A DNA stretch of 64,000 bases from Salinigranum halophilum (lineage in GTDB: Archaea; Halobacteriota; Halobacteria; Halobacteriales; Haloferacaceae). The stretch's first letter is position 1; each line of letters starts with the position of its first letter. The translations under genes were made by a program, and so were the position numbers. This document shows, in pieces, positions 18,723-46,419 of the stretch. The DNA lies in the NCBI RefSeq assembly GCF_007004735.1, contig NZ_ML660182.1:62001-126000 (forward strand), given 5' to 3'. Below the pieces are notes generated by a model. It ran no database searches and was not told where the DNA came from. It was given only the letters and a program-made list of their open reading frames with translations.

Positions 18723-19415
18723 TTAGCGCCCGACCAGCCCGTCGACGAGCGCCCGGAGCGTGGCGAGGTCGTACTGTCCGGGCGCTGTCGCCTGCGCGGG
18801 GGTGAGGGGCGCGTAGCCGATTTTCGAACCGTACACCGGGGCGACCGCACGGGTGTGACTCCCGGCCGCCCCCATCGCCATCGTCGCGACGGGGTCGCCC
18901 CACGCCGTCGCGGCGTGAGTCGCCTCGAGGAGTCGGAGCGCGTCGGCCCCCGTCTCGGCGGTGACGGCGACCTTCCCGACGTCGCCCAGCGAGGCCGCCT
19001 CGTGGAGGAGTCGTCGCAGCGCCGACGACGCCGGGGTGCCCTCGAAGTCGTGGACCGAGGCCACGACGGCCGCGCCGCGCTCGCGAACGGCGTCGGCCGT
19101 CTCCACGCCCTGTTCGGTCCTGAGCGTCTCGAGTTCGAGGTCGACAGCGCCGACGGCGTCGTGGTCAGCCGCCGCGACGAGGCCGTCGAGCCGGGAGGCT
19201 TCCGCGCCCGCGAACGCGCCGCCCTCCCACTCGGGACGGTACGTGACGAGAAGTGGAAGCCCGTCGCTCGGATAGTCGTCGAGCGCCGCGAGGGGGTCGT
19301 CGGCGAGGTCCAGCCGGAACTCGACGGCGTCGGCGTGTTCGCGCGCCGTCTCGGTCTCCGCGTCTGCGAGGTCCCCCGTCGATGCACAGAGGACGAACGC
19401 GTCGAAGTCGAGCAT
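18723..19415 (-). CDS. aroD: 3-dehydroquinate dehydratase, type I
   Basis: A 230-residue type I enzyme that converts 3-dehydroquinate to 3-dehydroshikimate. It has the N-terminal VEFRLDLADD strand, VTYRPEWEGG, catalytic His122 in VVASVHDFEGTP and Schiff-base Lys148 in GDVGKVAVTA, with the closing GSKIGYAPLTPAQATAPGQY lid region. The ATG at 19413-19415 starts the conserved sequence. It is the third shikimate step and lies close to the ADH synthase and dehydroquinate synthase genes but on the opposite strand. It is downstream of the Zim methyltransferase gene by 43 bp. Confidence 0.93.
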   Translation of the reverse strand: MLDFDAFVLCASTGDLADAETETAREHADAVEFRLDLADDPLAALDDYPSDGLPLLVTYRPEWEGGAFAGAEASRLDGLVAAADHDAVGAVDLELETLRTEQGVETADAVRERGAAVVASVHDFEGTPASSALRRLLHEAASLGDVGKVAVTAETGADALRLLEATHAATAWGDPVATMAMGAAGSHTRAVAPVYGSKIGYAPLTPAQATAPGQYDLATLRALVDGLVGR

Positions 19416-19458: not shown

Positions 19459-20487
19459 CTATCGCGGCTCGTACGACACCGAATACTGGCGCGGCCCCTC
19501 TCCATCGGCGGCTTCGGCGTCGGTCACGTCGTAGAAGCGGACGTGTCGCTCCTGTTTGGTCACGACCGGGAAGTCGTAGTGGACGGCGTCGTACTCGAGC
19601 GGTTCGTCGCGCTCGCGGACGAACGTGCGGTGTCTGTCGAGGCGCGCGTCGAGGCGCTGTCTGGCGCGCTCGGGGAGCCCGTCCAGGCGGTCGTCGAAGG
19701 CGCTCAGGAGGTCAGGTTCGAGTTCCGTCCCGACGGAGTCTCGGCCGGCGAGCATGGCCGCAAGCGTCGTCGTCCCCGTCCCGGCGAACGGGTCGTACAC
19801 GCGGTCCCCGTAGGTCGAGTACATCCGGACGAGCCTGAGCGGGAGAGCGAGCGGGAACGACCCGCTCCGGTCGCGGCCGTCGCCCTCACGGGCCTGCGAC
19901 GCGCCGTGGAGCTCCCAGAGGTCGGAGAACCAGCGGTTGCGCTCCTCCCAGAAGAACGCGCTCTCGTACCGCGACTCGTCGTGGGGCGGGAACTGTCTCC
20001 GCGGGCCCTTCCGGAAGACGAGCACGTGCTCGTGTTCGAGCGTGACGTAGGCGTTCGTCGGCAGCATCCCCGAGCCCATGAACTTCGTTAGCCGATTCGT
20101 CGGCTTCCGCCAGAGGACCGTCGGCAGGGGTGAGAAGCCCCGCTCGCGGAACGCCTGCGTCACCCGCGCGTGGTTGGGGAAACACTGGAACTCGCCGTCC
20201 AGCGAGCGGGTGGCGTCGCCGACGTTGACGCAGGCGATGCCGCTCGGCCGAAGCACGCGGTCGACCTCGCCCCACACCGCGTCGAGGAGTTCGTGCATCG
20301 CGTCGAACGCGTCGTCCCCGCGCCCCTCGCCGAGTGCTCGGCCCACCGCGGGCGAGAGGGCGGCGAACTGCTCGTCCCACATCTCGATCATCGGGTACGG
20401 CGGCGAGGTGACGACGAGGTCGACGCTCTCGTCGGCCACGTCCGACTCCCGACTGTCCCCGACGTGGAGGACGTGCTCGGTCCGCAT
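19459..20487 (-). CDS. zim: DNA (cytosine-N4 type) methyltransferase, Zim-like, CTAG-specific
   Basis: A 342-residue DNA methyltransferase with motif order TSPPYP (motif IV, residues 27-32) before YDPFAGTGTTTLAAM (motif I, about residue 231-245), the beta-class arrangement. TSPPY rather than DPPY suggests N4-cytosine or a related target. Its neighbourhood matches the orphan Zim methylase of haloarchaea, which modifies CTAG (knowledge of Haloferax; not shown by sequence alone). No restriction gene is adjacent, so it is a solitary methylase. CTAG is very scarce in this window, yet one CTAG sits in this gene's own promoter (20510-20513). Confidence 0.85.
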   Translation of the reverse strand: MRTEHVLHVGDSRESDVADESVDLVVTSPPYPMIEMWDEQFAALSPAVGRALGEGRGDDAFDAMHELLDAVWGEVDRVLRPSGIACVNVGDATRSLDGEFQCFPNHARVTQAFRERGFSPLPTVLWRKPTNRLTKFMGSGMLPTNAYVTLEHEHVLVFRKGPRRQFPPHDESRYESAFFWEERNRWFSDLWELHGASQAREGDGRDRSGSFPLALPLRLVRMYSTYGDRVYDPFAGTGTTTLAAMLAGRDSVGTELEPDLLSAFDDRLDGLPERARQRLDARLDRHRTFVRERDEPLEYDAVHYDFPVVTKQERHVRFYDVTDAEAADGEGPRQYSVSYEPR

Positions 20488-20507
20488 CGGCCGATGGACG
20501 ACGGCAG

Positions 20508-20518
20508 GGCTAGTAGGC
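20508..20518 (-). promoter_or_regulatory. Probable zim promoter box containing a CTAG site
   Basis: Read on the minus strand this is cctactagccc. The T/A-rich TACTAG core lies 23-29 bp before the zim ATG, where a TATA box for a leaderless message would lie, and no better box is visible nearby. It contains CTAG (20510-20513), the presumed target of the encoded enzyme. Confidence 0.4.
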
Positions 20519-20638
20519 TTTGGGGTCGCGTCGATGGTCGGGTGCGTGCAGGCGCGGCCGTCGCGGTGAGGACGCGCGACCGCAGCGAAACGAGACGAGG
20601 TGATGGTTCCGGGGCTCCCGCGGCCCGAATCCAGCGAC

Positions 20639-21631
20639 TCAGGCCAGGCCGATCTGCTCTTCGGCTTCCAGCAGTTCGTGGTAGCGGTTCCGGATGGTCA
20701 CTTCCGAGATGTCGGCGACCTCGCTCACGGCGGCCTGCGTCGTCTTCTCGTTGGTGAGGAGGGAGGCGGCGTACACCGCGGCGGCGGCGAGGCCGACGGG
20801 AGACTTCCCCGAGTGGACGCCCTGTTCCTTCGCGTTCTGCAGGAGCTGTCGGGCGCGCATCTTCGACTCGTCGGAGAGGCCGAGTTCGCTCGCAAAGCGC
20901 GGGACGTACTGCTCGGGGTCGGCGGGCTTCACCTCGAGCGAGAGTTCGCGAGAGACGTAGCGGTAGGTGCGGGCGACCTCGCTCTTCTCGACGCGAGAGA
21001 CCTCGGCGATCTCGTCGAGCGAGCGTGGGACGCCGGCCATCCGCGCGGCGGCGTAGGTGCAGGAGGTGGAGACGCCCTCGATGCTTCTTCCAGGTAGGAG
21101 GTCCTCCGAGAGCGCGCGGCGGTAGATGACCGACGCGGTCTCGCGGACGTTGTCCGGGAGACCAAGGGCAGAAGCCATCCGGTCGATCTCGCCGAGCGCC
21201 TGCTTGAGGTTGCGCTCCTTGGAGTCGCGGGTGCGGAACCGCTCGTTCCACTTGCGGAGCCGCTGCATCTTCTGGCGCTGGCGCGCGCCCAGCGAGTTGC
21301 CGTAGGCGTCCTTGTCGCGCCAGTCGATGTTGGTCGACAGCCCCTTGTCGTGCATCGTGTTCGTCGTCGGGGCCCCGACGCGCGACTTCTGGTCCTTCTC
21401 GCGGGCGTCGAACGCGCGCCACTCCGGGCCGCGGTCGACGGAGTCGGTGGTGATGACGAGCCCGCAGTCTTCACACACGGTCTCGCCGTGCTCGTCGTCG
21501 GTGACGACGTTCCCCGAACACTCGGGGCAGGTCAGTTCGTCACCGGTCGTCTCGCTCTCGGTCGTCCGCTCGTCACTTCGTTCGCGCGGTGCGTCTCGTA
21601 GTCGTGTGCGTCCGTATGATTTCTCGCTCAT
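20639..21631 (-). CDS. tfb: Transcription initiation factor TFB (TFIIB homologue)
   Basis: A 330-residue general transcription factor that bridges TBP and RNA polymerase. The zinc ribbon has Cys35, Cys38, Cys53 and Cys56 (CPEC ... CEDC), followed by the B-reader region DSVDRGPEWRAFD, and two cyclin-like repeats. The second repeat contains SGKSPVGLAAAAVYAA and the recognition helix EVTIRNRYHELLE that reads the BRE. The start is the ATG at 21629-21631 (MSEKSYGRT); an upstream in-frame ATG would add nine residues. Haloarchaea carry several TFBs; which paralogue this is cannot be decided here. Its upstream region is unusually rich in TATA-like and palindromic sequence. Confidence 0.96.
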   Translation of the reverse strand: MSEKSYGRTRLRDAPRERSDERTTESETTGDELTCPECSGNVVTDDEHGETVCEDCGLVITTDSVDRGPEWRAFDAREKDQKSRVGAPTTNTMHDKGLSTNIDWRDKDAYGNSLGARQRQKMQRLRKWNERFRTRDSKERNLKQALGEIDRMASALGLPDNVRETASVIYRRALSEDLLPGRSIEGVSTSCTYAAARMAGVPRSLDEIAEVSRVEKSEVARTYRYVSRELSLEVKPADPEQYVPRFASELGLSDESKMRARQLLQNAKEQGVHSGKSPVGLAAAAVYAASLLTNEKTTQAAVSEVADISEVTIRNRYHELLEAEEQIGLA

Positions 21632-21713
21632 GGATACGACGGCAGGTGCTCCCGGCATCCGTGGCGTCCGCGAAAAGGCCGGTGCAGTCTGTTGCGTTGA
21701 CGACGGAGTGGTA

Positions 21714-28541: not shown

Positions 28542-28910
28542 TCAGGCGCTCGTCATCACCTCGACGATGGCGTCGGCGCTCGCGCGGTTCGTCGCGAGCG
28601 GGACGTCGTGGACGTCACAGATGCGCATGAGGGCGGAGACGTCGGGCTCGTGAGGTTGAGCGGTGAGGGGGTCGCGGAAGAAGACGATGCCGTGGCACGA
28701 CCCTTCCGCGACCTCGGCCCCGATCTGGAGGTCCCCACCCAGGGGGCCGGACTTCTTCGGCTCGACCGCCAGCTCCGTCTCCTCGCGGAGCCGTTTTCCC
28801 GTCGTCCCCGTGGCGATGAGTTCACAGGTCGCGAGGAGTTCCTGGTGTTCCTGCGCGAATTCGATGAGGTCGGGCTTCTTCTCGTCGTGAGCGATCAGCG
28901 CGAGACGCAT
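28542..28910 (-). CDS. mgsA: Methylglyoxal synthase
   Basis: A 122-residue enzyme that converts dihydroxyacetone phosphate to methylglyoxal. It has MRLALIAHDEKKPDLIEF with His8, the phosphate-binding IATGTTGKRL (residues 32-41), the catalytic Asp60 in SGPLGGDLQIGA, and FFRDPLTAQPHEPDV with the substrate-proximal Asp80 and His87. Length and motifs are complete. The ATG at 28908-28910 fits the family start. It lies 71 bp downstream of fttA on the same strand, so readthrough from that gene is possible. Confidence 0.93.
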   Translation of the reverse strand: MRLALIAHDEKKPDLIEFAQEHQELLATCELIATGTTGKRLREETELAVEPKKSGPLGGDLQIGAEVAEGSCHGIVFFRDPLTAQPHEPDVSALMRICDVHDVPLATNRASADAIVEVMTSA

Positions 28911-28981
28911 ACGAGAGAGTGTGGAAGGCCGCGGCTTGAACCTAGCGACGGCGGTGAGACTCGGTCCCGGCGTGTCCGCGC

Positions 28982-45393: not shown

Positions 45394-45499
45394 TAGTCCC
45401 GGGCGGATTCGAACCGCCGTCAATGGCTGGCTTCCACGCCTGGTCAACTCCAGTAGCGTGTCCAAAGGCCATTATGATTGGCCACTACACCACGGGACT
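45394..45499 (-). tRNA. tRNA-Gln (TTG anticodon) with a 33-nt intron
   Basis: The 7-bp acceptor stem is AGTCCCG (45493-45499 on the minus strand) with CGGGACT (45395-45401), discriminator A, and no encoded CCA. The T arm has GGTTCGAATCC. The anticodon stem is ATGGC/GCCAT, with loop CTTTGGA and anticodon TTG. Exons of 38 and 35 nt give a 73-nt mature tRNA. The insert at 45429-45461 falls after position 37, the classic site for the archaeal bulge-helix-bulge intron; the exact splice points could move by one or two bases. A gcatatga box lies about 33 bp upstream (near 45530). Confidence 0.93.
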
Positions 45500-45616: not shown

Positions 45617-46359
45617 TTACCCTTTGAAACGAGTGACGCTGCTAGTATCACTCTCAACGAGGCAGTGACAACTTCGACAGAGTGAGACGAGGTTTGTAAG
45701 TGTGTGTGCCTCCTCGGGGTTCTCAAACTCACGGACTGGTTTGATGTGGTGGACATCGGGGTTCTGTTCTAACTCGTCGGCCGTCTTCTCACAACGAACA
45801 CAGCGATAGTCGTCACGTTCTAGGGCTTCGCGGCGTGCCTTCCACCAGCCAGTGCCGTAATCGAGAGAACCACCCTTCGACTGGTGATGATTCTCTCCGA
45901 CGATGTTTTCCGACAACCACTGCCCGTAACAGGCCGACGAACAGAACACTCCGTAGGAATTCCTCGCTCTCCTCCATTCCTGAATACGGAGGACGGAGCC
46001 ACACTGCTCGCAGTTGGTGGTTATCCGCGCTGGACGTGCTGGGTTTTAGCCAAGAGGCCGACTGCCTGCTTGACACATCTCGAACAGTAGACCCCCCGTT
46101 TGTTCGAGGGGTAGTAGTCGAACCGGGTTTCACAGATTCGACACACTGCTGTTTCTCTACTATCCCTCCAGTTTCCGTTGTTTTTTCCAGCGTTCGGGTT
46201 GCAGTTATCGCAGTACTTTCGCTGTGACTTGGGATCGTAGAACTCCACACCGCAGTCAGCACAGGTACGGTTTGGGAGCGACTCACCGTGTACTTTCGAG
46301 TGATGTTGACGTAGCCCGCTTTCGGTGCGAACCGATCTACTGCACGTCGGGCAGTCCAT
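45617..46359 (-). pseudogene. HNH endonuclease-like gene broken by a frameshift
   Basis: Two adjoining frames together make one protein. The first (46359-46021) starts MDCPTCSRSVRTESGLRQHH, a C2H2-like finger, with further Cys pairs (CADC, YCDNC, CRIC, YCSRC). It stops at 46021. The next frame begins just before, at TTNCEQCGSVLRIQEW (about 46008), and runs through FCSSACYGQWLSEN to an HNH nuclease, DYRCVRCEKTAD, VHHIKPVREF, LVSLCRSCH, ending at 45617. A one-base shift around 46020-46040 separates them. The GC content is lower than nearby, and it holds two of the nine CTAG sites, which suggests transfer. It lies between sirR and tRNA-Gln. Confidence 0.7.
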
Positions 46360-46419
46360 AACAGCGTAACAAACCACGCTCTCTTGAATCTCTGGTCTGT
46401 GTGTAACGGTCCGTCCCGT

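Follow-up and report, generated by a model that had tools for sequence, protein, structure and literature searches.

A CTAG, the sequence that the orphan-type DNA methyltransferase encoded by zim is expected to methylate, is located upstream of zim itself within the window (the whole stretch of DNA analysed in this study, 64 kb in length, positions 62001-126000 of contig C1 of a haloarchaeon of Haloferacaceae type), and the promoter evidence strongly indicates that it lies within the TATA element of a true zim core promoter. It is, on balance, probable that this box represents an old, inherited CTAG-type spelling of the TATA element, of ordinary strength, which is found in one clade of zim genes and perhaps makes zim mildly sensitive to its own product. 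Selection for feedback is not needed to explain the presence of CTAG in the zim promoter.

Table 1. Features of the zim locus (positions in the window; promoter elements are listed after the genes)
Feature	Position	Strand	Description
zim	19459-20487	minus	orphan-type CTAG DNA methyltransferase (putative), 342 aa, PF01555, TSPPY and DPFAGTGTT motifs
TFB (transcription factor B) gene, tfb	20639-21631	minus	upstream of zim at a distance of 151 bp; possible alternative start at 21658
aroD	18723-19415	minus	type I 3-dehydroquinate dehydratase; downstream of zim
Core promoter (16 bp), CAAAGCCTACTAGCCC	20507-20522	minus	predicted; best model match upstream of zim, score 7.16
TATA element, TACTAG	20510-20515	minus	predicted from the AT peak and the promoter-model match; kept in G323 and G424 but lost from G423
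BRE-like CAAAG, inside ACCCCAAAG	20518-20522	minus	predicted from the model match; ACCC(C)AA block kept in 4/4 congeners
CTAG	20510-20513	minus	expected target of the CTAG methylase; -26 to -23 from the zim start codon

The product of zim matches the PF01555 (N6_N4_Mtase) domain in a domain search (E = 6e-35) and shares 60–67% identity with Haloferax and other homologues across residues 1–341, so that full-length homology to haloarchaeal zim proteins is combined with an N4/N6 methylase domain. The motifs follow each other in the translation in the order SPPY, FxGxG (TSPPY at approximately residue 27 and DPFAGTGTT at approximately residue 230). This is the single full-length zim match within its own genome, and no restriction gene is present beside it at this locus, the neighbours being tfb and aroD. 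The enzyme is predicted to methylate CTAG by homology to HVO_0794, for which this activity was established through deletion, as described in the available text of PMC5867850. The initial annotation had placed the zim start at 20487, and this assignment holds: the ATG is backed by an N-terminal alignment, in which most homologues begin at the aligned codon, and a published primer at the HVO_0794 start shows an identical context preceding the ATG. A mis-annotated start was thus ruled out. The gene order tfb-zim-aroD recurs widely: across the 189 zim loci compared, tfb precedes zim in 48 and aroD follows it in 63. Moreover, zim is missing in many genomes of genus g2 (family f1), and many partial matches, spanning only the first 200 residues, were found in genera g3 and g20.

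The position of the core promoter was examined using an 800-kb portion of the same genome, in which a codon-usage model called 827 genes (89% coding); 589 of these are preceded by 50 bp or more of free DNA and constituted the promoter set. Across all of these promoters, AT content reaches its maximum at -29 to -25, and the TATA position can therefore be regarded as real. A peak at this distance is what leaderless genes would give. In Haloferax volcanii, 72% of transcripts are reported to be leaderless (PMC4983044, available text). A core-promoter model trained on the promoters of the window's own genome yielded the consensus CGAAACGCTTATGCCC, in which a TATA box comes after a BRE. The highest-scoring match to this model upstream of zim, CAAAGCCTACTAGCCC, ranks at the 58th percentile of promoters (above the median) and scores higher than every coding-sequence control. 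The CTAG falls within the TATA element of this match, in agreement with the initial annotation both as to its exact location and as to its overlap with the probable TATA box; the expected target site thus lies within the core promoter of the predicted methylase gene.

CTAG was also said to be scarce in the window, with nine copies, and this is correct in substance: ten are present, against approximately 83 expected from dinucleotide shuffles. In the 800 kb of the same genome 133 CTAGs were counted (0.17 per kb), and intergenic DNA is richer in them than genes (56 of the 133 sites in 11% of the sequence). Only one of the 589 genes, namely zim, has a CTAG with its C at -32 to -23. If alternative start codons are allowed, at most two more, ambiguous, cases are added (232758 and 657795 in 800-kb coordinates), which gives a rate of 1 to 3 in approximately 590. 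The occurrence of CTAG at the zim TATA position is more than chance in this genome. A genome-wide promoter enrichment of CTAG was ruled out for this genome, as no clear TATA-position CTAG was found outside zim. Among the other CTAGs of the window, one (28942-28945) is intergenic, 35 bp upstream of the gene at 28542-28910 (minus strand) and just before its TATA-like GTTCAAG. Two of the ten lie in a stretch comprising an HNH-endonuclease-like reading frame (45617-46377, minus strand) and the adjoining tRNA gene (45394-45499, minus strand), whose length of 106 nt suggests an intron.

The comparison was extended to 189 non-redundant haloarchaeal zim promoters, with 1,613 other promoters of the same loci as the background. 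CTAG occupies the TATA position in 17 of the 189 zim promoters versus 12 of the 1,613 others, a 12-fold excess by species count (Fisher 2e-10), and, without correction for ancestry, it has the highest zim-to-background ratio among the 256 tetramers at this position; TTTA, the usual TATA word, is depleted at zim promoters. Nearly all CTAG-positive zim genes belong to one clade of the zim tree, comprising 69 genes, in which CTAG is present in 16 of 68 zim promoters (window excluded) versus 3 of 520 background promoters. The positives are Halomarina and g65, g46, Haloglomus and g86, one member of g39, one of g51, Halobium, Halegenticoccus soli and the window's genus; this clade has in common a CAAGACACTAG-like block and the tfb-zim-aroD synteny. 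Three of the four congeners carry CTAG, and the BRE and the TAC of the box are conserved within otherwise diverged intergenic DNA: G323 retains CCTACTAG, G424 retains TACTAG, and G423, with CCTACGGGG, has lost the CTAG. No CTAG was found at the TATA position of the sampled Haloferax, Natrialbaceae or Halobacterium zim promoters, and approximately 91% of the 189 zim promoters are without it. Other spellings occupy the same place: CTAAG in Natrialbaceae, CACGAG in Halomicrobium and relatives, TTTTG in Haloferax, CTACATAA in g5 and GATACC in Haloplanus. Further upstream, at -100 to -51, there is no excess of CTAG that would indicate a distal cluster. The conservation across haloarchaeal zim promoters that the initial annotation had put forward as a check is therefore found in one clade and fails in most others.

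The raw 12-fold excess was dropped as proof of selection after a tree-aware test, because most of the positives have one common ancestral promoter. When a two-state model with the background frequency as its equilibrium was compared with a free model on the zim tree, the likelihood-ratio statistic was 1.15; the fixed-equilibrium model fits almost as well, and the excess is not significant. Stochastic mapping gave 1–2 gains of CTAG and approximately 13 losses, and the turnover rate of CTAG (approximately 2) is similar to that of CTAA in the sister clade (1.5–1.7). Given that gains are few, losses many and the excess not significant on the tree, common inheritance of a TATA box of the CTAG type is a sufficient explanation.

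Set against shared ancestry, the evidence concerning the site consists of the excess by species count, the small statistic on the tree and a double CTAG in genus g18, which lies outside the CTAG-TATA zim clade. Each of the four g18 genomes (G421, G174, G124 and G346; loci L252-L255) contains a single copy of the 11-mer CTAGCGCCTAG, invariably placed downstream of the TATA box and 4 bp before the zim ATG, while the neighbouring bases vary. The g18 zim promoter is composed of a BRE and a TATA box (GAAACGGAGGATATAT), followed by GCTAGCGCCTAG ending at that same distance from the ATG. Elsewhere in the family, CTAGCGCCTAG was found in 5 of 163 genomes, none of the copies being at listed zim coordinates, and two CTAGs within -50 to -1 occur in 0 of the 1,613 other promoters. 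In two of the four g18 genomes a second CTAG (ATCATTTCTAGG) is located ahead of the BRE. A coding remnant was considered as the source of the motif: the reading frame stays open over the final few codons, yet silent positions are conserved while neighbouring residues change, and a DNA-level cause is therefore likelier. As the strongest independent hint, the g18 element favours a real control link between CTAG and zim, which might operate via methylation or via binding of Zim as a repressor.

According to the reading that we prefer, zim would be transcribed from a leaderless core promoter of its own, with the CTAG as the 3' portion of the TATA element, and an ancestral box close to CAAGACACTAG would have been passed down, along with the tfb-zim-aroD neighbourhood, in one haloarchaeal zim clade and repeatedly mutated away. 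TBP and TFB would bind the CTAG box as a TATA element of ordinary strength and start leaderless transcription, TBP use and the transcription start being predicted from the promoter sequence. In living cells the box is probably methylated (N4-methyl-C), since its sequence equals the predicted target of Zim, so the Zim protein may have a mild effect on transcription of its own gene. In favour of the inherited box we count its placement by the model exactly at the CTAG, the BRE and TAC conservation in congeners, the restriction of nearly all positives to one clade and the ratio of gains to losses. Against it stand the leftover coincidence that a rare box sits on the CTAG methylase's own gene (approximately 0.2–0.7% by background frequency), the separate double CTAG of g18 and the top tetramer ratio.

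Selected feedback is a possible, though tentative, alternative. Methylation by Zim of its core-promoter CTAG would lower or raise TBP/TFB binding or promoter opening, which would fix the enzyme level; the hemimethylated state that follows replication would trigger a burst of enzyme synthesis, and g18 would reach the same end with its two CTAGs between TATA and start. This fits the uniqueness of zim among the 589 promoters, the contrast between zim and background promoters within the clade, the invariant placement of CTAGCGCCTAG in g18 and its near-absence elsewhere, and the bacterial precedents CfrBI, LlaDII and AhdI (PMC12707154). It fits less well with the numerous losses (including that in congener G423), the lack of a significant tree-aware excess and the fact that most zim genes are without the site. 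In addition, TBP contacts the minor groove and the N4-methyl group sits in the major groove, hence methylation need not affect TBP strongly. Promoter strength may change if the box carries the methyl group, and a route through DNA bending or through TFB/polymerase is as likely as one through TBP contact. The broader proposition, that orphan CTAG methylases set their own level via core-promoter CTAGs and that this evolved at least twice (as a TATA-box CTAG and as the g18 CTAG-3bp-CTAG), is possible, with equally limited confidence.

Pure chance, by which CTAG would have arisen in this species and a handful of others without any promoter or regulatory role, could appeal to the single site and to the higher density of CTAG in intergenic DNA, but is very improbable in view of its location at the TATA peak, its conservation in congeners, its recurrence across families and the promoter-model score. 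Least probable of all is that zim is mainly transcribed by read-through from tfb, with the local box of little weight: tfb is the near upstream neighbour in the same orientation, an arrangement seen in 48 of the 189 loci, but the BRE/TATA block is conserved at the right distance in species both with and without an adjoining tfb.

Feedback of the kind considered here had been thought not to have been described before. This does not apply to bacteria, where methylase genes controlled by methylation of a site in their own promoter are known (CfrBI, LlaDII and AhdI; PMC12707154, available text), nor to upstream CTAGs as such, which were noted in Haloferax lucertense; for archaea, no report of promoter-methylation feedback on a methylase gene was found in the open-access literature. 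PMC6471742 (available text) describes as open questions both the role of the haloarchaeal CTAG methylase, which is retained very widely, and the cause of CTAG scarcity. If feedback were true, the CTAG methylase would have a regulatory circuit, cytosine-N4 methylation would act on an archaeal core promoter, and the loop would be the first of its kind in an archaeal TBP/TFB promoter. Genera suited to a comparison are the window's genus, Halegenticoccus, Halomarina and g18, with the site, and Haloferax, without it.

Three known systems invite comparison with the window. The orphan CTAG methylase of Halobacteria (zim, HVO_0794; cHG U of Fullmer et al. 2019, PMC6471742; PMC5867850) belongs to the same protein family and has the same expected target, whereas Haloferax zim promoters have TTTTGTTT or TTTTGTCG in place of the window's CTAG; the available text of both papers discusses no regulatory role of the zim promoter. 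In Haloferax lucertense, CTAG is enriched upstream of genes and regulation by methylation has been proposed (PMC11001535). This resembles the window in that CTAG lies near gene starts, but it is a genome-wide statistic, presented in the available text of PMC11001535 without mention of the methylase's own promoter, and in the window genome the TATA position is not enriched in CTAG outside zim. Finally, in CfrBI, LlaDII and AhdI, as in zim, the methylase gene has a core promoter that contains the target site of the enzyme it encodes. The three are bacterial RM systems whose effects were shown by experiment, and CfrBI has an adjacent restriction gene; zim, in contrast, is an archaeal, apparently solitary methylase gene with a TBP/TFB promoter, known here from its sequence.
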